Shown here one piece after another: positions 6,064 to 19,395 of a DNA stretch of 22,187 nt (its first letter is position 1; every line of letters starts with the position of its first letter). The stretch covers positions 1-22,187 of the IMG/VR virus record IMGVR_UViG_3300043395_003396; one strand, written 5' to 3'. This stretch comes from a virus. The position numbers were made by a program, and so were the translations under genes. The notes under the pieces were generated by a model. The model saw nothing but the letters and a program-made list of their open reading frames with translations. It did no database searches and was not told where the DNA came from.

Positions 6064-6283
6064 CGGAGGAGGCGAGGTCGGCGAAGAACTGGGTGCGGTC
6101 GGGGAGTTGATTGGCGGTGGCGTTGGCTAGGCGCAGCAACGCAACCTTCAGGTGCTGGATCTCAGCCCGCAGTTCCAGCAGACACGGGTACTCCGGGGTG
6201 ACGACGAAGCGCGGGGAGTTCTGAGCGATCTCAACCGCTTTCTCGATCTCTGCCCAGCGGTCGTCGGGGCTGGGGCTAGTCAT
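6035..6283 (-). CDS. Hypothetical small helical protein
   Basis: 82 residues, unrecognised. The N-terminal half contains RWAEIEKAVEIAQNSPRFVV and the middle a coiled-coil-like helix LLELRAEIQHLKVALLRLAN. ATG 6283 overlaps the methyltransferase stop by four bases (ATGA), which decides the start over an in-frame ATG nine bases upstream. It may be a small accessory of the replication block; no function is visible. Confidence 0.55.
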   Translation of the reverse strand: MTSPSPDDRWAEIEKAVEIAQNSPRFVVTPEYPCLLELRAEIQHLKVALLRLANATANQLPDRTQFFADLASSDAHIPPTLP

Positions 6284-7161
6284 TGCGCGCAATGGGTGAT
6301 TTCGGTGGGCGGAGGCGTAGTGGCGAGCTCAAGAACTCGGCGGAGAGGGATCGCGGCAACATGTGGCACGACCGCGTTTCCTAAGGTCTTCAAGCGGTCC
6401 ACCCGATTGGAAAGCCCATCATTTCCTCGACAAATGACGGGTTTAGATAGGTAGCTTCGCCAGTCGGGATTGAGGGGTCGCGGAGCATGGCCCCAGCAAG
6501 TCCGTCTCTGGTTATTTGAGAGGGGGGCAGGGTGCTGTTCCTGCTGTCGTTCACCGTTTGGGTAGGAAGCATCCGAGCTACCACGGTCTCCAAGTTCGGG
6601 TGAAGCTCCGGTCGGTTTTGTTGGGTTCGCAAGTCCACAGTCATCGCGGAGTTGGCCCTGGGCGTGGGCAATGACCCACACTCGCTTTCGCAGGTGGCAG
6701 GCGCCCACATCTCGCGCCGATACAACTGCCCACTCCGCATCAAACCCTGCACGGGCAATTTGGAAGAGGACTTCTTGGAAGGTCTCCCCGTTCTGGTGAG
6801 AGACGAGATTTGCAACGTTTTCAAGGATGACGAAGCGAGGTCGAATCTCCCGAGCCAATCGGATGACCTCGTAAAAAAGTCCACTACGGTGTCCAGCCAG
6901 TCCCTCTTGTTTGCCCGCCGATGAGAGGTCTTGGCAGGGGAAGCCAGCTGTAAGCACGTCGTAAGTGGCAGGGGCAGCTGTAAAGGTGCGTACATCGTCG
7001 TGGAGGGGTACGTCCGGCCAGTGGCGTTGAAGTACCCGCTGGCAGTAAGGGTTGAGCTCAATGAACTGAGTGGTTGTGAACCCGCCGACCAAATGCTCTG
7101 CGGCGTAGCTGAAGCCCCCAATGCCGCTGAAACAGTCGAGTAGTCGCAGCGGCGCAGTCAC
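6280..7161 (-). CDS. dcm: C5-cytosine DNA methyltransferase
   Basis: Transfers a methyl group from S-adenosylmethionine to C5 of cytosine in a specific DNA site, probably to shield phage DNA from host restriction. The 293-residue product has motif I DCFSGIGGFS (9-18), the catalytic PC of GFPCQDLS (Cys76), motif VI ENV (114-116), motif VIII near LRKRVW, and a C-terminal RVDRLKTLGNAVVPHVA (motifs IX-X). The target-recognition region is short, and the site cannot be read from sequence. GTG 7161 overlaps the previous stop (GTGA), and motif I begins eight residues later. No restriction endonuclease is adjacent. A 19-bp direct repeat lies inside its 3' end and at the 3' end of the preceding gene, suggesting insertion. 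Confidence 0.92.
   Translation of the reverse strand: MTAPLRLLDCFSGIGGFSYAAEHLVGGFTTTQFIELNPYCQRVLQRHWPDVPLHDDVRTFTAAPATYDVLTAGFPCQDLSSAGKQEGLAGHRSGLFYEVIRLAREIRPRFVILENVANLVSHQNGETFQEVLFQIARAGFDAEWAVVSARDVGACHLRKRVWVIAHAQGQLRDDCGLANPTKPTGASPELGDRGSSDASYPNGERQQEQHPAPLSNNQRRTCWGHAPRPLNPDWRSYLSKPVICRGNDGLSNRVDRLKTLGNAVVPHVAAIPLRRVLELATTPPPTEITHCAQ
6293..6311. repeat. 19-bp direct repeat flanking the methyltransferase gene, copy 1
   Basis: TGGGTGATTTCGGTGGGCG, identical to 7171-7189; with the preceding bases, 22 of 23 positions match. It encodes the shared C-terminal residues TEITHC of the methyltransferase. Confidence 0.85.
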
Positions 7162-7421
7162 GGAGTGCAGTGGGTGATTTCGGTGGGCGTAAAGTCGCCG
7201 CTGGGGTGGTGGTGCCAGACTTGGATCGTTGCGTCGAGCTGGTCGGTGCGGTGCTCCTCGACCAGGACGCGCAGCCAGGTGCCAAGCCACTTGCCGGTGC
7301 GGATGCCGCGGACCGTGAAGACGATGTCGGGCTGGGGCGGCAGGCCGTGCTCAGGAATGAATTGCAAGACCGCGGTGGTGGTGTTACGCGGCGGGAGGTA
7401 GAGGTCGTCGGAGCTGCTCAT
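7158..7421 (-). CDS. Hypothetical phage protein, 87 residues
   Basis: No family recognised. Likely beta-rich (TTAVLQFIPE, DIVFTVRGIR, WLGTWLRVLVEE, ATIQVWHHHP). It ends in PTEITHC plus two residues, almost the same as the methyltransferase C-terminus, because both lie in the 19-bp repeat. Starts at ATG 7421, overlapping the exonuclease stop by ATGA, and ends in a GTGA overlap with the methyltransferase. It sits in the replication block, so a replication accessory is possible. Confidence 0.55.
   Translation of the reverse strand: MSSSDDLYLPPRNTTTAVLQFIPEHGLPPQPDIVFTVRGIRTGKWLGTWLRVLVEEHRTDQLDATIQVWHHHPSGDFTPTEITHCTP
7171..7189. repeat. 19-bp direct repeat flanking the methyltransferase gene, copy 2
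   Basis: Second copy of TGGGTGATTTCGGTGGGCG, 878 bp from the first. It lies at the 3' end of the gene preceding the methyltransferase. Confidence 0.85.
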
Positions 7422-9541: not shown

Positions 9542-10240
9542 CTACCTACCTAGGTTCGCCTGCAGGTGCTCCCAGAGAACCGTGCCGCTCAGGCCCACCA
9601 GGCGCCCGATGGCGTCGAGGTCGTGGATCAGGCGGTCGGCAGGGACGGCGCGGTTCAGGAGCAGGGGCTCGATGGTGGGGCAGTCGTAGACGAGCTCGGG
9701 CAGCTTTTCGTACCAGTCGATGTTGTGCTTGCCGTAGTGAGCCCGCAGGAAGGCGCCGAGGGTGCGGCTGGCGGCCGGGGCGTCGGCTTCGTCAAGCTCA
9801 CGGCGTTCGCGCGCTGGCAGCTCCCGCAGGCCGCAGAACGCCTCAAACATGCCCACAGGGCCCAGGGCAATGCCGTCGCGGTCAAGCAGGGGGATGGTGT
9901 GCTCCCAGTCCGATTTGAGGTAGTGGGGGAGCTTGGGTGGGTAGCCGATGTCGGGCACCTGCTCAATCAGGTCTTCCGGGTGGCCGATGCTGCGGGCTAG
10001 GGCGGTGTTGAAGTAGCCCAGCGCCAGCAGCGTCTTGGGGGCGGGTTCGATGAGCTTGCCGGTGCGGAAGCCGCCAATGGTGCTGCTGTGGATCGCCTTG
10101 GTGCCCAGGTAGGCCGCGGCCAGCTTCATGAACTGCGTCTGGGTCATCTGGCTGCTCAGCGCCCGGAACGCAGGAGGGAATTGCATGGCGCCCTGTTCAA
10201 GTGCGGTGAGCAGTGGGGCGGCCTTGGTGGAGTCCGTCAT
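9542..10240 (-). CDS. Hypothetical phage protein, 232 residues, possible DNA-binding protein
   Basis: No family recognised. The N-terminal 80 residues look helical, with KAIHSSTIGGFRTGKLIEPA resembling a helix-turn-helix with a winged or AbrB-like follow-on. The C-terminal half is soluble and helical (RTLGAFLRAHYGKHNIDWYE). It is the first gene left of the TCGGACA array and would be transcribed from the leftward promoter-like arm at 10308-10339, so it may regulate or initiate from that array; that is inference. ATG 10240. Its stop lies in CCTAGGTAGGTAG, similar to sequence at its own upstream region. Confidence 0.55.
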   Translation of the reverse strand: MTDSTKAAPLLTALEQGAMQFPPAFRALSSQMTQTQFMKLAAAYLGTKAIHSSTIGGFRTGKLIEPAPKTLLALGYFNTALARSIGHPEDLIEQVPDIGYPPKLPHYLKSDWEHTIPLLDRDGIALGPVGMFEAFCGLRELPARERRELDEADAPAASRTLGAFLRAHYGKHNIDWYEKLPELVYDCPTIEPLLLNRAVPADRLIHDLDAIGRLVGLSGTVLWEHLQANLGR

Positions 10241-10582
10241 CAGTGGCCTAGCTAGGTAGCCCTGACGCTACCTGAGGGCGCAATAGCGGGTGTCAAAACT
10301 CCTGTTCCCTTTAATACTCCCCCGGTTTGCCTGTCCGAGTACCTATCAAACCCCTTGGGGGGGAATGGATTTGATCTCGGACAGCTATCTCGGCATATCT
10401 CGGACAGTGTCCGCGCAACAAGAGAGCTTATTGAGAATGGACACCGGTTTACTCGGACAGTGTCCGAGATAAGTCCGAGACCATTTGTCCGAGTTAATCG
10501 CTTGCGCTGCAATGGATCCCAGCTATCTCGGACAGGAAAAGGGGGAGAGTATTAAAGGAGACCCTCCCCCGTTGGGTGCGGA
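10241..10582. promoter_or_regulatory. 342-bp non-coding region with an array of TCGGACA sites, candidate origin or operator cluster
   Basis: No convincing gene. Sites of CTCGGACA or its complement TGTCCGAG lie at 10332-10339, 10376-10383, 10399-10413 (near-complete palindrome), 10452-10468 (perfect CTCGGACA-G-TGTCCGAG), 10486-10493 and 10527-10534. Weaker copies are at 10389-10395 and 10473-10479. A perfect 12-bp inverted repeat, CCTTTAATACTC (10308-10319) and GAGTATTAAAGG (10547-10558), bounds the array. In each arm the outward order is CTCGGACAGG, then about 8 bases, then GAGTATTAAAGG, like a -35/-10 pair with 16-base spacing on the left. AGGTAGC-CCTGAC-GCTACCT (10254-10273) is a further hairpin. 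Confidence 0.7.
10537..10570 (-). terminator. Terminator-like hairpin after the primase-helicase gene
   Basis: On the minus strand GGGGGAG (10570-10564) pairs with CTCCCCC (10547-10541) across a 16-base loop, followed by TTTT (10540-10537). It begins 13 bases after the primase-helicase stop. The large loop makes it weaker than usual, and it overlaps one arm of the 12-bp inverted repeat. Confidence 0.5.
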
Positions 10583-12829
10583 TCAGATGTAGTTGATGCC
10601 GTCGCCCCGGCTGGTGAGCATTTGCTGCGCCGAGGTGCGGACCTGCTGCCGGGGGCGGTAGTGGAGGCAGGGGCGGTTCTTGACGATGGGGCTGGGGCGT
10701 ACCTCCGTCTCCAGCACCGTCCCCACCAGCCGGTCGAGGTAGCGGCGCAGGTTGCGCTCGTTGAACTGCAGGTCCAGCAGCTGCATCCACTCGCTGGGGA
10801 TGCGCCAGCGGTCATCGGTGACGCGCCGAAACGACGACGCCAACACCTCCAAGGGCGATGCCTCCCCTTGGTTGGGATCCATCCACTGCCAGACGCCGGT
10901 GTAGCCGTCGCGGGTGATCTGCAGCTTGCGGCCCGCATATCCGCCCCGGCTCTTCTCCACCAGGAGGTGGCGGGTCTTGTTGAACGTGGGGGCCGTCTTC
11001 TTCTGCTTGATCAGTTCGGGGTCGTAGTACACCCACAGCTCTTCGCAGGCGGCTTTGATCTGCTCGGTGCCGCTGAAGCGCAGGGGCTCGTCCCGGCTGG
11101 TGTGGTGCAGGATCAGGAACGCGCACTTGGGCCAGCTGGTGCCGTTGTGGCGCACGAACATGCGGATCGGGTCGGCGTAGGCAGGGTCGCCTACCTTCAC
11201 GCCGGTGACAGCCATCGATGTGAGGCAGTCGCAGATCACCAGATCTGGCTTGAAGTCGCTGAGCGTCTGGACGATGGGGATCATGTCGTCGAAGTTGGCG
11301 CCGGAGTGGATCAGTAGGCGCTCCTGGCACGCCTTGTCCTCAATGCCCTCCAGCACCAGATCGCGCACCATGTCCTCATCGCTGCAGTCGCTGGTGAGCA
11401 CCAGCACGCGGCCCGGGGCGTTGATGCCGTGGCGGGTGTTGCCGATGTCGACCGGGGCGCCATTCAGCACCCTTGACGCCAAGAAGCACGCCAAGGTCGT
11501 TTTGCCGCTGTGGCTGCCGCCGGCTACGACGTGGACGCGCCGGGGCAGCAGGCCGTCCAGCACGTCGGTGGCGACGTTGTCGTTGCGGCGCGACTTGGCG
11601 ATGTCGGCCATGGAGCGCGGGGCGCCGAGGCTCACCACCCCCAACCACTGCTCCAAACGCAGCCGGTACAGGTCAGCTGGGCTCACGCCGTATTCGCGGT
11701 AGGCGCGTCCGGTCCACGCAGCCAGCGCCGCGTGATCGGCGCTCACCTCGTTCATCTTGTTGAGCACCTTCTTGAGGCCGTCGACGTGGAGCTGGGTCTG
11801 CTCCAGCGGGGGCAGGGCCCAGGTGGGCCATTGGAAGCCGTTGTTGCGGGCGAAGTGGAACAGTGAGCCGATGCGGGCGCGCTGGTCCTCGGCCACGCGG
11901 CTGCTCGCCAGCGACGCGATGGTCTTCTCTGCGGTGGTGTTGCCCCAGTCGTTGCGGGTGTCCCACTCGCTGGCTTCGATGATGTCCTGGGCGAGCTGGG
12001 GGCCGAACTCGTCGATAAGGCCGCAGATGATGCGGCGTACCTTTTCGTAGGTGCCGCTGCCGCGGCCGTCGCGGTTGGGGCAGAACTCCAGCGCCTCTCG
12101 CGCCAGCTGGATCTTTTCGTGGGTGCGCAGGCGCTCCCAGGGGGTGGCGTCGTCCTCGCCCGAACGGCGGCGCTCCTCAGGGCTATCGGGCACCTGCTCG
12201 TCGAACTTGGCAATGATTCCCAGCAGCAACCACTCCGGCGCGTCGCCCCACTTCACGTCGGTGGGCGCGCTGCCGCTGAGCCAGCGGTAGTAGAGGGGCG
12301 TTTGGTGGGAGCTTTGGGGGTGGTCGCCGCAGATGACGGCATGGCGGCCGGTGCCGGTGCCGTTCATCCAGATCGCTTCGAGCACCACCTTGTCCTCCAC
12401 GCGCCAGGACGCGCTGCGGTTTTCCAGCTGGGGCCACCAGTGGGGCGGGACGCGCAGGAAGACCTTGCCGCGGCCTTTCTTGCCGCTCTCGTTGCAGATC
12501 GTGGGGCGCAGTTCGCTGGGGTTGCGGTGGAAGTGGTCGCGGAAGGCGCGGACCGCCTGCGAGCCGGTGCCGTCGAAGTCGATCACCAGCAGTCCGCCGG
12601 ATTCTGGGCCGGTGATCGCGCCGACGCCGATCAGCTTGTTCGACTTCCAGCGCTCATACGGCGTCGGGGAGGAGTTAATGCGCAGCACGTCGTCGAGCGT
12701 GCGGCCGGAACCCTTGGTGTTCCAACCCTCCTCAAAACAGACCTTGGAGTCGTCGTTGCCGCCGGTGAGGGCATAACGCCACTGGGGCGGCAGGCCCTGT
12801 AGGAGCGCTGTCTGGTCGTCGCGAAGCAT
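10583..12829 (-). CDS. Primase-polymerase / RecA-fold helicase (bifunctional replication protein)
   Basis: 748 residues. The N-terminal 210 residues are an archaeo-eukaryotic-type primase-polymerase domain, with LLVIDFDG (catalytic Asp84 and Asp86) and GTGRHAVICG (His163). The C-terminal half is a RecA-fold ATPase like RepA/AAA_25 helicases: Walker A GGSHSGKTT (437-445), Walker B PDLVICDC (Asp534), and a following LILHHTSRDEP. It would make primers and unwind DNA at the fork, serving the polymerase encoded divergently on the right. ATG 12829 has TTAATA nearby and a TCGGACAG half-site 12 bases upstream (12841-12848). The gene is followed by the TCGGACA array. The middle segment (210-430) is helical and unassigned. 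Confidence 0.85.
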   Translation of the reverse strand: MLRDDQTALLQGLPPQWRYALTGGNDDSKVCFEEGWNTKGSGRTLDDVLRINSSPTPYERWKSNKLIGVGAITGPESGGLLVIDFDGTGSQAVRAFRDHFHRNPSELRPTICNESGKKGRGKVFLRVPPHWWPQLENRSASWRVEDKVVLEAIWMNGTGTGRHAVICGDHPQSSHQTPLYYRWLSGSAPTDVKWGDAPEWLLLGIIAKFDEQVPDSPEERRRSGEDDATPWERLRTHEKIQLAREALEFCPNRDGRGSGTYEKVRRIICGLIDEFGPQLAQDIIEASEWDTRNDWGNTTAEKTIASLASSRVAEDQRARIGSLFHFARNNGFQWPTWALPPLEQTQLHVDGLKKVLNKMNEVSADHAALAAWTGRAYREYGVSPADLYRLRLEQWLGVVSLGAPRSMADIAKSRRNDNVATDVLDGLLPRRVHVVAGGSHSGKTTLACFLASRVLNGAPVDIGNTRHGINAPGRVLVLTSDCSDEDMVRDLVLEGIEDKACQERLLIHSGANFDDMIPIVQTLSDFKPDLVICDCLTSMAVTGVKVGDPAYADPIRMFVRHNGTSWPKCAFLILHHTSRDEPLRFSGTEQIKAACEELWVYYDPELIKQKKTAPTFNKTRHLLVEKSRGGYAGRKLQITRDGYTGVWQWMDPNQGEASPLEVLASSFRRVTDDRWRIPSEWMQLLDLQFNERNLRRYLDRLVGTVLETEVRPSPIVKNRPCLHYRPRQQVRTSAQQMLTSRGDGINYI

Positions 12830-12914
12830 GAACTATTAAGTCGGACAGGCGGAAAGTAGCGCGACCTGACCGAGTCCGGTAGTCTCTGCGCACCCCTACC
12901 CAATAAGGTGCAAC
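12830..12914. promoter_or_regulatory. Divergent promoter region between the left and right replication operons
   Basis: 85 bp between divergent starts. It contains TCGGACAG (12841-12848), the same half-site as the 10.3-10.5 kb array, next to CTATTAAG (12833-12840), echoing the TATTAA of the array arms. An AAGG precedes the GTG at 12915 by six bases. No standard -35/-10 pair is obvious. Confidence 0.5.
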
Positions 12915-13103
12915 GTGGATCTTCCAGAGGGCGGCCTATTGCCGCATGAGAAACGAGATCTCATTCAGGAGATCCAGGTCGATACCTTCCGGCATATGAA
13001 AGTTGAGGAGGTGCGCTGGGTGACCAGCTGGGCGTTGACCTTGGCCGCGGCCTCTGATGAAACCGTTGTCCGCGTGTGGAGCGAGATTCATGGCGGACGT
13101 TGA
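12915..13103 (+). CDS. Hypothetical small protein upstream of the DNA polymerase
   Basis: 62 residues, probably helical (HEKRDLIQEIQVDTFRHMK, then VRWVTSWALTLAAASDETVV). No family recognised. GTG 12915 has a Shine-Dalgarno-like AAGG at proper spacing. Its 3' end overlaps the polymerase start by 14 bases, so the two are likely coupled. It is the first gene of the rightward operon. Confidence 0.6.
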   Translation: MDLPEGGLLPHEKRDLIQEIQVDTFRHMKVEEVRWVTSWALTLAAASDETVVRVWSEIHGGR

Positions 13104-14907
13104 TCAGGCGCTTCTGGCCGACCTGGAGAGGTTCGGTAGCGCGTTTGCGCTCGACATGGAGACGGCACTGGTGCCCCTGTGCTGGGAAGGTAGGCATCAG
13201 CAGCGCCTGCTCCAGCTGCACAACGACACCTGCAGCAGCTGGTATGACCTGGCGCTGTGGGGCGAGCCGCAGTGGGAGGCGCTGCGGGTGTTCCTGGAGA
13301 ACCCGGCGCTGGAGGTGTACGGGCACAACCTCGCCTTCGACCTCAAGTGCTTGCTGGCGTCAGGCGTTGAGGTCAAGGGGCGCCTGTACGACACGATGAT
13401 CGCCTCGCGCCTGATCCATCAAGGCGTGGCGAAGGTCAGCCACTCGCTGGCGGATGTTGTGCGCCGGGAGCTGGGGAAGGTCATTGATAAGTCGCTGCAG
13501 TCGCAGGACTGGATGAACGCCGAGCTGACCGAGGCGGATCTCGCATACGCGATGGGCGACGTGAAGATGACGTGGGATGCCGCCCACTCCCTGCACGCGC
13601 AGATTTTTGAGCAGGGGCTGCTGCACACCTATCGGCTGGAGACGGCGCTGATCCCGGTGGTGGCGTCCATGGAGCTCAAAGGGATGTACGTCGACACCGA
13701 GCAGCTGCGCTCGGCGCGGGAGTTCTACAGCTCCAGTCGCAATGAGGGTGAGGCGTTCTATGTGCAGTTGCTGGATGAGCAGCTGAAGGCGGCCGGGCAT
13801 GAGGGGCTGCCCCGGCTGGCGTCAGGCGAGTTCAATCTCAACGCCAAGGCGACGGGCAAGGTGCGCGAAGGCACCAAGGTGCCGGCCGGTTTCAACATGG
13901 GCTCGCCCCGGCAGCACGCGGCGTACTGGGGCGTGCTCGGCATTGAGCCCAAGGATGAAAAGGGCAAAGTGTCGCTCGACAAGAAGAACCTTGCGACCTA
14001 TCGCCACCACGAGATTGTCCGCACCTACGAGTTCTACAAGAAGGCGGAGAAGCGGGCGACGATGGCGGAGAAGTTGCTGGAGCATGTGAAGGCGGACGGG
14101 CGCATTCATGCGCAGTTCATGCCCCTGCAAACGGCGACGGGGCGCTGGTCGTGCGCTAATCCCAACCTTCAGCAGATTCCGCGTGATCCAGAGTTTCGCA
14201 ATGCGTTCACTGCGCCCGAGGGTTGTGTGCTGGTGCAGGCGGATTACAGCGCGATGGAGCTGCGCTACCTGGCGGCAGTTGCTAAGTGCGGGCCGATGCT
14301 GGATGCGTTCAATAGCGGGGCGGATTTACATACGCGCACGGCTGCGTTGATGTACGGCATCAAGGACGAGGATGTCGATAAGACGCAGAGAACTGCGGCC
14401 AAAGCGTGTAACTTTGGTCTCGCGTATGCGAGTGCTCCCAAGGGGTTGCAGGCGTACTTCGCGACCTTGGGCCTCTACATCGACATGAAGCAGGCGCGGG
14501 AGTTTCATGCGATGTGGCATAACGCCTACCCCGAAGTAGGGGTGTGGCATGACTGGTGCCAGAAGCAGGTCAACGCTGGGGTGCCGGTGACGACTGCGAT
14601 TGGGAGGCGTCGCAAGCTATTTGGCGAGGAAAACCGCGTTCAGATCTTCGCCAATAACACGATCCAGGGCGGTTGCGCTGACATCATGAAGGCAGCGATG
14701 GTCGAGATCTTTCATAAGCTCCCCGCCCAGGCCCGGTTGGTGGCCTGTGTCCACGACGAGGTTTTATGCGAAACGTGCATAAACGTGGCCGAGGAGGTTT
14801 TGGGGCTCGTTATCGGCGAGATGCAGGATGCTGCTATACCCATCGTCGGTACTGCAGTCACGATGAAGGCAGAGGGAGGCGTCGTTCGGAGCTGGGGTGA
14901 GAAATGA
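13090..14907 (+). CDS. polA: Family A DNA polymerase with 3'-5' exonuclease domain
   Basis: Replicative phage polymerase, 605 residues, with no 5' nuclease domain, as in T7-like enzymes. Proofreading domain: LDMET (Asp22, Glu24), GHNLAFDLK, and YAMGDVKMTWDA. Polymerase: motif A DYSAMELR (catalytic Asp385), motif B RTAAKACNFGLAYA (Arg434, Lys438, Phe442, Tyr446), and motif C VHDE (Asp556). Phe442 occupies the position of E. coli Phe762, which affects nucleotide selection and has been linked in the literature to phage lifestyle. ATG 13090 has a GGAG about eight bases upstream; an in-frame ATG at 13057 would deepen the overlap with the previous gene and is less likely. The stop overlaps an ATG (14904) by ATGA. 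Confidence 0.95.
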   Translation: MADVDQALLADLERFGSAFALDMETALVPLCWEGRHQQRLLQLHNDTCSSWYDLALWGEPQWEALRVFLENPALEVYGHNLAFDLKCLLASGVEVKGRLYDTMIASRLIHQGVAKVSHSLADVVRRELGKVIDKSLQSQDWMNAELTEADLAYAMGDVKMTWDAAHSLHAQIFEQGLLHTYRLETALIPVVASMELKGMYVDTEQLRSAREFYSSSRNEGEAFYVQLLDEQLKAAGHEGLPRLASGEFNLNAKATGKVREGTKVPAGFNMGSPRQHAAYWGVLGIEPKDEKGKVSLDKKNLATYRHHEIVRTYEFYKKAEKRATMAEKLLEHVKADGRIHAQFMPLQTATGRWSCANPNLQQIPRDPEFRNAFTAPEGCVLVQADYSAMELRYLAAVAKCGPMLDAFNSGADLHTRTAALMYGIKDEDVDKTQRTAAKACNFGLAYASAPKGLQAYFATLGLYIDMKQAREFHAMWHNAYPEVGVWHDWCQKQVNAGVPVTTAIGRRRKLFGEENRVQIFANNTIQGGCADIMKAAMVEIFHKLPAQARLVACVHDEVLCETCINVAEEVLGLVIGEMQDAAIPIVGTAVTMKAEGGVVRSWGEK

Positions 14908-14957
14908 ACGATGCGCGGGTCCGCGAACTGCTGCAGACTGCTGCACTTCGCTACGTC
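14904..14957 (+). pseudogene. Possible 5' remnant of a gene cut by the recombinase gene
   Basis: ATG 14904 overlaps the polymerase stop by ATGA, the normal coupling in this operon, and opens with MNDARVRELLQTAALRYVR. After about 18 codons the frame is antisense to the recombinase 3' end and reads as proline- and arginine-rich nonsense up to 15143. The simplest reading is that a real downstream gene began here and was displaced when the recombinase gene arrived. It could equally be a real small gene overlapping the recombinase, or chance. Confidence 0.35.
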
Positions 14958-16251
14958 AGAGGCGAAGCACCACGTTCACCACTTCCTGGTGATCCACCAG
15001 CACCTGCTCCACAAGAGCCAAGTAGAGCTCGCGGAGTTCTTCGTCGTTCAGCTGCGACCACACGGCTGGGTCGGCGAATACCGAAAGCAGCTCGGGGTCG
15101 GGGCCAACCTGCTGCTCTAGCGCTAGCAAGCGCTCGCGCTTGATCGCAATCGCTGGGGCCAGGTCCGGGTCGCCCAGCGCCTCCAACTCCGCGATCTTGG
15201 CCTTGAGCGCCAGGATCTCGGGGTTTTCTGTTGTCGCCAGCTGCGCTAACTGCGTGTTGCGCTGGGATAGAGCAGCATTGATCTGCTCGCGCACCTTCTG
15301 TTCGCGCGTGCTCTTATACCGCTGTGGACACTCGCGACTTTTGCATATAACGCTGGCGATGGTGCGGCTGCCGGCGTAGGTCATCTTCCGGTTACAGCCG
15401 GCGCAGACGCAGAGGCCTGTAAGCAGGCGGGGTCTCACCTGTGCGCTGTGGCCCCAGCGACGGCGATTGTCATGCAACTGACGTTCCATGATCACAAAAT
15501 TGCTGTGGGACAGCAAGGCGGGGTGAGTCTCCCAAATGATCTCTTTATATGTGTTGTCGTTCTGCTTGAGGTATCCCAACCCACCCCGAAGCACGGGGTT
15601 CAGTAGCCACGCTTTGACGGCGCGGCATGAGCCTAGGGGGATTGGCCCGAGCCCTGCTCTATGCCACTGGTCTAAGGCGGTGTTCATGCGCCAGTCACAG
15701 GCTTTGCATAACGCAAGGAACCGGGCGGCTCTCGGAAACTCTTCAGGATCGGGCTCGAGGGCGCTGCGGTCTGCGTTCAGGCGGTAGCCCCACGCCACCT
15801 TGCCGCGCAGGGGCCGGGCGCGTTTGCGGCCTTCGCTGTAGCCGGCGCGGATCCGTAGGGACAGCATCCGGCTTTCCATCTCCGCCATGGAGGTGGCGAT
15901 GCGCGAGAGCAAGAAGCCCTGGGGGGTTTCGGAGTCAACCGTGCCGCCGTCCAGGCAGTGGATGCGCACACCGCGCCGGGCGGCGATGGCGATCAGCGCA
16001 TCGGTGGCCGCCGCGTCCCGGCCCAGCCGGTCGATGCGCGTACACACAACCTCATGGACTTGGCGGGTGTCGATGAGGTGCAGGAGCTCCAGGTAGCCGG
16101 GGCGGTCCTGTGAGAGCCCGCTTTCCACGTCCTCGATGAGGCGGTCGACGCCGGCGCCGAGGATCCGCGAGCGCTGGTTTTGCAGGGCGCTGAGCTGCTC
16201 ACTCGTGTCGGTTGACACGCGCAGGTAGCCGATGCGCACTTCTTGTCCCAT
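14956..16251 (-). CDS. Large serine recombinase (phage integrase type)
   Basis: 431 residues. N-terminal resolvase domain with YLRVST (nucleophile Ser13), TRIDRLGRD (Arg72, Arg75) and GGTVDSETPQGFLLSRIATS. A recombinase domain follows, then a zinc ribbon with CAGC (Cys283, Cys286) and Cys303/Cys308, and a coiled coil at about 316-382. These enzymes recombine short attP and attB sites without a long homology, giving lysogeny; excision needs a directionality factor, which could be one of the small neighbours. The start is ATG 16251, just before the domain; a longer in-frame start near 16491 would add an unrelated 80-residue tail and overlap the next operon. Its strand opposes both neighbours. 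Confidence 0.9.
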   Translation of the reverse strand: MGQEVRIGYLRVSTDTSEQLSALQNQRSRILGAGVDRLIEDVESGLSQDRPGYLELLHLIDTRQVHEVVCTRIDRLGRDAAATDALIAIAARRGVRIHCLDGGTVDSETPQGFLLSRIATSMAEMESRMLSLRIRAGYSEGRKRARPLRGKVAWGYRLNADRSALEPDPEEFPRAARFLALCKACDWRMNTALDQWHRAGLGPIPLGSCRAVKAWLLNPVLRGGLGYLKQNDNTYKEIIWETHPALLSHSNFVIMERQLHDNRRRWGHSAQVRPRLLTGLCVCAGCNRKMTYAGSRTIASVICKSRECPQRYKSTREQKVREQINAALSQRNTQLAQLATTENPEILALKAKIAELEALGDPDLAPAIAIKRERLLALEQQVGPDPELLSVFADPAVWSQLNDEELRELYLALVEQVLVDHQEVVNVVLRL

Positions 16252-16323
16252 GGGACTAACGCTATGCGGGGTTGACTTCTTGTGTGGAACAGATACTCTC
16301 TTCCTGTCTATACAGGAACAACC
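16252..16323. promoter_or_regulatory. Divergent region between recombinase and right operon, with operator-like inverted repeat
   Basis: TTCCTGT (16301-16307) and ACAGGAA (16312-16318) form a perfect 7-bp inverted repeat around CTAT. The right arm contains the AGGA that serves as Shine-Dalgarno for GTG 16324, so either a protein or an RNA hairpin could control translation or transcription. A TTGACT lies at 16272-16277 without a good -10 at normal spacing. A nearby attP is likely but not identified. Confidence 0.5.
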
Positions 16324-16548
16324 GTGACATCCCTTGCGCCACGGCGCATCTCGGCTGTGGCCGAAGATTGTGTGACGCACACTGCAGAGCTCCTGCAGCT
16401 GCTTAACCGCCTCTCTGACGCGGAAGCGGAGCTGAGTGAGGACGAGCCTCGTTACCAGGAGCTGGTGACGGCGCTGTTCGCGCTCAAGCACGCCATCCAG
16501 GGCATCAAGACCGTCGCCGCCCTTGAGGCGGGGAGGTACGGCTTGTGA
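16324..16548 (+). CDS. Hypothetical small helical protein
   Basis: 74 residues. Mostly helix, with HTAELLQLLNRLSDAEAELS and YQELVTALFALKHAIQGIK, compatible with a coiled coil. No family recognised. GTG 16324 is chosen because AGGA stands at the right distance and palindromic DNA precedes it; an in-frame GTG at 16282 would read through the inverted repeat. The stop overlaps the next GTG by GTGA. Confidence 0.55.
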   Translation: MTSLAPRRISAVAEDCVTHTAELLQLLNRLSDAEAELSEDEPRYQELVTALFALKHAIQGIKTVAALEAGRYGL

Positions 16549-18191: not shown

Positions 18192-18385
18192 GCACAGCAG
18201 CGTTTCACAGCGCCCTTGCGCTTGGAGGCGTGGAGGAGGTGCTGCTGGAGGTGGTGGAGCAGGGGCAGCGCTATGCCGCTGCGCAACACCCCGCTGTTGA
18301 TAACCGCTCGCTGTACGCCTTTTTGGCGGAGCTGAAGTACAGCGTGCGGCAATCGGAAACCTTGACTAATGCAAACCCACAATGA
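18188..18385 (+). CDS. Hypothetical small protein between thyX and the sigma gene
   Basis: 65 residues, helical and acidic (ALALGGVEEVLLEVVEQGQR, then NRSLYAFLAELKYSVRQ). No family recognised. Coupled to ThyX by GTGA and to the sigma gene by ATGA. It could be a sigma-associated factor, but only position suggests this. Confidence 0.55.
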   Translation: MSTAAFHSALALGGVEEVLLEVVEQGQRYAAAQHPAVDNRSLYAFLAELKYSVRQSETLTNANPQ

Positions 18386-19395
18386 AGTTCGATCACACGT
18401 TTTCTGATTTCCTCAACGAAATCGGCCGCTACCCCCTGCTGACGATGGAGCAGGAGCTGGTGCTGGGGCGGCAGGTGCAGAGCATGGTGGCGCTCAAGGA
18501 GAAGGAGGCGCAGGGCGGCAAGCTCACCAAGAAGGAGCTGCGGGCTGTGCGCGTTGGGATGCGCGCCAAGGAGCAGATGGTGAACTGCAACCTGCGCATG
18601 GTCGTCTCCATCGCCAAGAAGTACCTCAAGCGGGTGCATCACCTGACGATGCTGGATCTGGTGCAGGAGGGCGTCATCGGCCTGATGCGCGGGGTGGAGA
18701 AGTTTGACCCCCAGCGTGGCTACAAGTTTTCGACCTACGCCTATTGGTGGATCCGGCAGGGGATGAACCGCGCCTGCAACCAGCAGGACTCCGCGATTCG
18801 GATGCCGCACCACGTCGCTGAGAAGGTGCCCAAGCTCAAGCAGGCGATCCACCGGCTGTCGCAGGAGCTGGGGCGGATGCCGACGAAGAAGGAGCTGGCC
18901 GACGCCATGGAGATGAGCGTCGATCAGATGTGGATGATCTTCGAGCGCACGGCATCGCCCTGCTCCCTGGATGCGCAGCTGCAAGAGGAAGGCTCTGCGC
19001 TGATCGACGTGCTGCCTGATACGTCGACTGAGGACAACGACGCCATCTTCCTGATGGATGATCGCTGGCGGCTTGAGGCGGGGTTGGCGCGGCTGCCGGA
19101 TCGGGCGCGGTACGTCGTGGAGCAGCGCCATGAGCTCACTGGCAAAGCGCCGGTGGCGTATCAGGTGCTGGCGCAGGAGCTGGGGCTGTCGCGGGAGCGG
19201 GTGCGGCAGATTGAGATTCGCGCCCTGCGCCAGCTGCGCACTTACATGAAGAGCGTGTCGCCGCTAGCCGATCCCAAGGCTCTCGCAAACTTCACGAGCC
19301 ATGGCGACAAAATCAAGGGCCTCGTCAGCCTCCGCTTGAGCGCCAAGGAACAGGACAAGCTCCAGCTCGCTAATGCGGCCAATGGCGTTGGCTAA
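18382..19395 (+). CDS. Sigma-70 family RNA polymerase sigma factor (cyanobacterial RpoD/group 2-like)
   Basis: 337 residues. Region 1.2 FSDFLNEIGRYPLLTMEQEL is strikingly like cyanobacterial RpoD and SigB-type sigmas; region 2 follows (NLRMVVSIAKKYL, DLVQEGVIGLMRGVEKFDP, KFSTYAYWWIRQGMNRA), then region 3, and the region 4 helix-turn-helix LAQELGLSRERVRQIEIRAL. The core is complete, without a long region 1.1, so it should bind host RNA polymerase core and direct it to phage promoters. The last 47 residues, after TYMK, are not part of a normal sigma and lie antisense to the convergent small gene at 19264-19566, suggesting a lost stop. Probably acquired from a cyanobacterial host; that is inference. 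Confidence 0.9.
   Translation: MKFDHTFSDFLNEIGRYPLLTMEQELVLGRQVQSMVALKEKEAQGGKLTKKELRAVRVGMRAKEQMVNCNLRMVVSIAKKYLKRVHHLTMLDLVQEGVIGLMRGVEKFDPQRGYKFSTYAYWWIRQGMNRACNQQDSAIRMPHHVAEKVPKLKQAIHRLSQELGRMPTKKELADAMEMSVDQMWMIFERTASPCSLDAQLQEEGSALIDVLPDTSTEDNDAIFLMDDRWRLEAGLARLPDRARYVVEQRHELTGKAPVAYQVLAQELGLSRERVRQIEIRALRQLRTYMKSVSPLADPKALANFTSHGDKIKGLVSLRLSAKEQDKLQLANAANGVG

Follow-up and report, generated by a model that had tools for sequence, protein, structure and literature searches.

A mirror-symmetric iteron array beside a phage primase-helicase gene: a putative replication origin that varies with the C-terminal winged helix of its predicted initiator

The locus and its genes

The virus record analysed here, referred to throughout as the window, spans 22,187 bp and carries phage genes, including those for a primase-helicase, a family A DNA polymerase (13057-14907), a serine integrase of the resolvase family (14956-16491), ThyX, a sigma factor, an exonuclease and an endolysin. 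Matches to isolated phages are few and weak, and because they include the Synechococcus phages S-LBS1 and S-H1, the host is probably cyanobacterial. No relatives were found in the bacterial and archaeal genomes that were scanned. Elsewhere in the window, the region of a C5-cytosine methylase gene (6280-7290) contains a 123-bp piece that is 83% identical to S-H1, and in the relatives that were checked tblastn matches to this gene span only ~30-45 residues.

The primase-helicase, the proposed initiator, is a 748-residue protein encoded on the minus strand (10583-12829) that combines a Prim-Pol-like N-terminus, an AAA_25 helicase domain and a C-terminal winged helix. AAA_25 is the only domain that Pfam recognises across 12 members of the family; the N-terminus has no direct Pfam match, and no PDB sequence matches the protein. 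The N-terminus can nevertheless be classed as Prim-Pol-like, of the archaeo-eukaryotic type of primases, by way of the S-LBS1 prim-pol, to which it aligns over the PF09250 region of that protein with an hhalign probability of 98.1% and an E-value of 9e-14. The full-length structural model is poor (pLDDT 54.6); the last 109 residues are modelled as a winged helix with a core pLDDT of 80-93, in which helices are followed by a two-strand wing (approximately residues 706-726, 10652-10714). Structural neighbours of this domain in the PDB include DNA-binding proteins of the PadR/MarR/HxlR type, with probabilities of ~0.9-0.99 and E-values of 0.02 or worse.

An array of short repeats lies in the interval bounded by the primase-helicase gene, which ends at 10583, and the gene for a 232-residue protein (9542-10240), which starts at 10240. 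The 232-residue protein is kept beside the array in relatives and has no match in Pfam or PHROG; its residues 44-80 resemble a helix-turn-helix when judged by eye.

Architecture of the repeat array

The array (10308-10558) was correctly placed by the initial annotation, which counted at least six copies of the repeat. Seven exact copies of CTCGGACA/TGTCCGAG lie within 203 bp, starting at 10332, 10461 and 10486 on the minus strand and at 10376, 10399, 10452 and 10527 on the plus strand, together with two one-mismatch copies on the minus strand at 10408 (CGCGGACA) and 10472 (CTCGGACT). This clustering is far above chance: the 22-kb window holds no exact copy outside the array, and Markov simulations gave a mean of 0.71 exact copies per whole window and a maximum of two in any 250 bp.

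The whole array forms a single dyad, unnoticed before, whose four site pairs and outer arms have midpoints between 10433.0 and 10434.5, placing its centre at ~10433-10434; the symmetry of the sites alone was matched by 24 of 2000 random placements. A palindrome with a one-base centre had been described, and two are in fact present, one on each side of a 36-bp central spacer (10416-10451): the iteron pair CTCGGACAGTGTCCGCG at 10399-10415 and the perfect pair CTCGGACAGTGTCCGAG at 10452-10468. Farther out on the left are a degenerate plus-strand iteron, CTCGGCAT (10389-10396), recognised from its sequence and its aligned position in relatives, and an iteron at 10376-10383 (plus strand). On the right lie the one-mismatch iteron that mirrors the degenerate copy (10472-10479, minus strand) and an iteron at 10486-10493 (minus strand), and the outer iterons occupy 10332-10339 (minus strand) and 10527-10534 (plus strand). 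The enclosing 12-bp inverted repeat, GAGTATTAAAGG, is found on the minus strand at 10308-10319 and on the plus strand at 10547-10558, and is part of a longer outer inverted repeat of 32 nt that is 88% complementary (10308-10339 and 10527-10558). The central spacer is 58% AT, compared to 36% for the window, and carries a conserved TTCTCAATAAG on its minus strand; it is a candidate site of strand opening. Along the window, GC skew has no turning point at the array.

In the near clade the arms are conserved, and arm sequence is confined within the window to the two ends of the array. The proposal that they act as divergent promoters is not supported, as no sigma-70-like promoter site occurs in the array. 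The phage itself encodes a sigma-70-family factor (18382-19395), and the arms could be among its promoters. Similarly, a wide phage regulon governed by the repeat is not supported: the half-site reported near terL (1105-1112) is no better than chance, with 23 occurrences of the one-mismatch motif in the window against 21.5 expected, 9 of the 23 lying inside the array. What stands of the proposed master operator is confined to the promoter of the primase gene itself.

Repeat types among related phages

Relatives collected by searching with the primase are contigs of 67-97% identity, and in 13 of them, 11 of which are distinct, an array follows the primase-helicase gene at the corresponding position. 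Three contigs (L011, L012 and L013) have the same array sequence, so that independent lineages are fewer than contigs in the set, and the arrays of L018, L041 and L042 are weak or unrecognisable. The type CTCGGACA is shared by the window and L011-L013, and other types are ACACGGACA in L014, L016 and L017, GTTCGGACA in L019 and weakly in L018, ACGCGGACA and ACAGGGACA in L020, AGGCGGACA in L021 and L023, ATACCGGCA in L022, and AACCGGACA, AATCGGACA and ATACGGACA in L015. Between phages the repeat changes in concert in both orientations, while some of the blocks separating the repeats, among them TTCTCAATAAG and CCCCCCAAGGGGTT, are unchanged; concerted change of this kind would be expected of copies that all have to be recognised by one protein. 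The L015 array (12244-12530 of that contig) is split by orientation, its forward iterons being mostly AACCGGACA, its reverse iterons AATCGGACA and its outer pair ATACGGACA, and the primase promoter of L015 has the same split.

It could be supposed that the array acts as a folded strand, either as a long hairpin or as RNA, in the manner of the stem-loop origin that lies downstream of the replication gene of plasmid pRN1. Both strands do fold far better than shuffled sequences (z -8 to -10), as do those of close relatives (z -7 to -11), and pRN1 shares with this locus both the layout of gene and origin and the winged helix (PMC4234260). Hairpins, however, follow automatically from dyad-symmetric binding sites, and the fold is strong only in the near clade and in L020: the array of L022 is almost devoid of long-range pairs, and the others among L018-L023 are weak (z -2.4 to -3.2). 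Moreover, pairing does not explain why copies in the same orientation, and distant sites in the primase promoter, change in concert, and Rfam has no match to the array. A folded strand is thus very unlikely to be the functional form, and an RNA element was rejected, its hairpin not being conserved.

When further carriers of the array were sought by means of TTCTCAATAAG combined with an iteron pair, or of ACACGGACATGTCCGTGT, known relatives alone were recovered. A search with CTCGGACANTGTCCGAG also returned five contigs that are not among the primase relatives (L003, L004, L006, L007 and L010), which were judged to be chance single palindromes from flanks and rejected as array carriers. In the centre of the array, TTCTCAATAAG is invariant in the near clade, and the search did not detect it in this arrangement in any other contig.

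The protein that varies with the repeat

The primase-helicase is conserved among the relatives except near its C-terminus, and the C-terminal part follows the repeat type rather than overall relatedness. Iteron distance correlates with the distance between C-terminal domains (codons 650-748, 10586-10882, minus strand) when residues 1-640 are controlled for (partial r 0.76, p 0.0002, an optimistic p-value because the permutation test takes near-duplicate rows as independent). The wing alone gives a partial r of 0.66, and the correlation for the recognition helix by itself does not reach significance (p 0.08). Across relatives, the predicted recognition helix hardly changes and neither does the GGACA core of the repeat, and the wing is the most variable part of the domain, just as the bases before the core vary; in L022, recognition helix and core are both altered. 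These parallels suggest that the recognition helix reads the core and that the wing reads the flanking bases.

Of the protein segments tested, only the last ~100 residues of the primase-helicase change with the repeat. For the 232-residue protein, the ribbon-helix-helix protein, a 211-residue protein, the exonuclease, PolA and the integrase, partial correlations with iteron distance range from -0.36 to -0.04. The initial annotation had named three candidate binders, and only the primase-helicase fits. The other two, the 232-residue and ribbon-helix-helix proteins, are encoded by genes that adjoin the array, and a ribbon-helix-helix domain is present in the second, but neither changes where the iterons change. 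In two pairs with different iterons, the window and L015, and L021 and L022, identity is 100% for the ribbon-helix-helix protein in both and 98.3% and 99.1%, respectively, for the 232-residue protein. Both were rejected as array binders, a role that is scarcely credible for either. Equally improbable is an attachment site for the serine integrase: a resolvase-family recombinase is indeed encoded in the window, but 4.4 kb separate its gene from the array, the array consists of ~10 copies rather than a single imperfect palindrome, and its variation is not followed by the integrase (partial r -0.04).

The association is clearest in individual comparisons. Overall, the nearest relative of the window is L015, ahead of L011, yet it is L011 that has the iteron and wing of the window. 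Between contigs L021 and L022, DNA identity is 95-100% on either side of one block, running from approximately codon 650 to past the array (codons 650-748 plus the array), in which identity falls to 34-63%, and the iterons of these two contigs are AGGCGGACA and ATACCGGCA, respectively. As read from these alignments, the difference is a cassette replacement; L021 and L023 differ by no such divergent block. In a search for the donor of the L022 domain, the sole match was L022's own contig.

Sites in the primase promoter

Because the codons of the domain adjoin the array, one recombination event could move both without any functional link between them. Two sites in the promoter of the primase gene bear on this objection. 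The first, GTCGGACA (12840-12847, plus strand), is a putative autoregulatory operator supported by relatives, and corresponds to a half-site previously noted one base to the right (12841-12848); the second is CTCGGTCA (12867-12874, minus strand). In most lineages the bases flanking these sites match the type of the array in the same phage (p 0.0004, or 6/720 once near-duplicates are collapsed). The sites lie 2.3 kb from the array and outside the exchanged block, yet are of the array's type, which argues against simple linkage as the whole explanation. Together with the concerted iteron changes, they answer the linkage objection in part. Unlike the other lineages, L021, L022 and L023 have no iteron-like sites upstream of the primase, and their absence may ease swaps in these phages. 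Where present, the sites suggest that the initiator regulates its own gene.

The same sites could be taken to mean that the array is itself a regulatory region, bound by the primase-helicase C-terminus as an operator or silencer for the operon of the 232-residue protein and for the primase gene, with the origin located elsewhere. The position of the array upstream of the 232-residue gene would suit such a role. However, a two-lobed dyad of ten sites is bigger than an operator needs, the array lacks a sigma-70-like promoter, and the helicase initiators of SaPI and SCCmec elements use the repeats downstream of their genes as origins or putative origins (PMC7581432), and a purely regulatory function is therefore considered unlikely.

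A predicted origin and its initiator

Very probably, the array is the phage replication origin, in which the winged helix at the C-terminus of the primase-helicase binds the iterons and is exchanged together with the array as a specificity cassette. This reading follows from the joint change of iterons and C-terminal domain, which no other tested neighbour exhibits, and from the presence of same-type sites in the primase's own promoter. The analogy to SaPI Rep and to SCCmec Cch2 (PMC7581432) suggests that the primase-helicase would be a self-loading initiator. The suggestion of a candidate origin in the initial annotation is thereby well supported by comparison among related contigs.

Initiator subunits would occupy both mirror halves of the array, separate the strands of the AT-richer central spacer and load one helicase ring facing each way. 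Priming would be carried out by the N-terminal Prim-Pol domain, followed by handover to the phage family A DNA polymerase. Binding of the initiator at 12840-12874 would repress its own gene, and the domain and the array would together constitute an exchangeable specificity cassette.

Comparison with known replication systems

In SaPI Rep and SCCmec Cch2, a C-terminal domain recognises repeats just downstream of the protein's own gene (PMC7581432). The likeness to the present locus lies in the C-terminal domain of a helicase, here with predicted recognition, and in several short repeats directly downstream of its gene; short repeats thus lie beside the initiator gene, and the repeat varies with the initiator's DNA-binding domain. 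There are also differences: here a Prim-Pol-like domain and AAA_25 are fused with a winged helix, without DUF927 or Primase_Cterm, the element is a phage that encodes a family A polymerase of its own, and the repeats form a mirror-symmetric two-lobed array. No homology to the DUF927 and Primase_Cterm/D5 helicase domains of SaPI Rep and Cch2 is detectable in the primase-helicase. In RepA of the PLE satellites, variation in the iterons likewise goes with variation in the initiator's DNA-binding domain, and the two are exchanged as one module, but RepA has a RepA_N domain and iterons of ~30 bp and belongs to a satellite, whereas here a phage primase-helicase is paired with iterons of 8-9 bp (PMC8263062). 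In its logic the locus is similar to the origins of SaPI Rep and PLE RepA, its novelty being judged within partial coverage of the literature.

The lambda O protein is not a helicase, unlike the primase-helicase here. Lambda-type origins also consist of phage iterons bound by a phage initiator, the O protein (PMC7466680, PMC3349717); the lambda iterons are inside the O gene, whereas those of the window lie between genes, outside the initiator coding sequence. Phages are inhibited by resident lambda replication DNA when they share its replication type, and a hybrid of P22 type escapes this inhibition (PMC3349717). By exchanging the specificity of origin and initiator, PLE satellites can evade Odn, a nuclease of phage ICP1 (PMC8263062). 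By analogy with both cases, interference is a plausible pressure here, and by exchanging the cassette, phages can probably evade the replication interference that related phages, satellites or defences carrying the same iterons would exert. A broader proposal, that the family keeps a set of replication specificities on one backbone, swapping origin and winged helix as a cassette under interference pressure and so maintaining several replication types, is put forward tentatively, with the chances slightly against it.

Near-identical phages are here seen to differ at a replication-specificity cassette, and an uncultured, probably cyanobacterial phage lineage gains a predicted origin and initiator. 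If the reading holds, the series of wings, each paired with its iterons, would amount to a natural code for DNA recognition by winged helices, and with at least six matched types, the code linking origin and initiator, as well as phage replication incompatibility, would be open to simple binding assays.

In ORF904 of pRN1, primase, helicase and C-terminal winged helix are likewise joined in one protein, with a putative origin just downstream, but that origin is a 100-nt stem-loop without iterons and the helicase is of SF3 type; at the present locus, conservation extends to the iterons but not to the long hairpin (PMC4234260). The Prim-Pol N-terminus of Synechococcus phage S-LBS1 is homologous to that of the window, and AGGTTRGGCAG repeats lie just downstream of its gene, but its helicase domain is VapE-like rather than AAA_25, and the repeats are unrelated. 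The S-LBS1 cluster of AGGTTRGGCAG / CTGCCTAACCT (L043:8134-8538, MG271909.1) directly follows the prim-pol gene at the end of its record, and a 127-nt stretch within it occurs twice, 254 bases apart.
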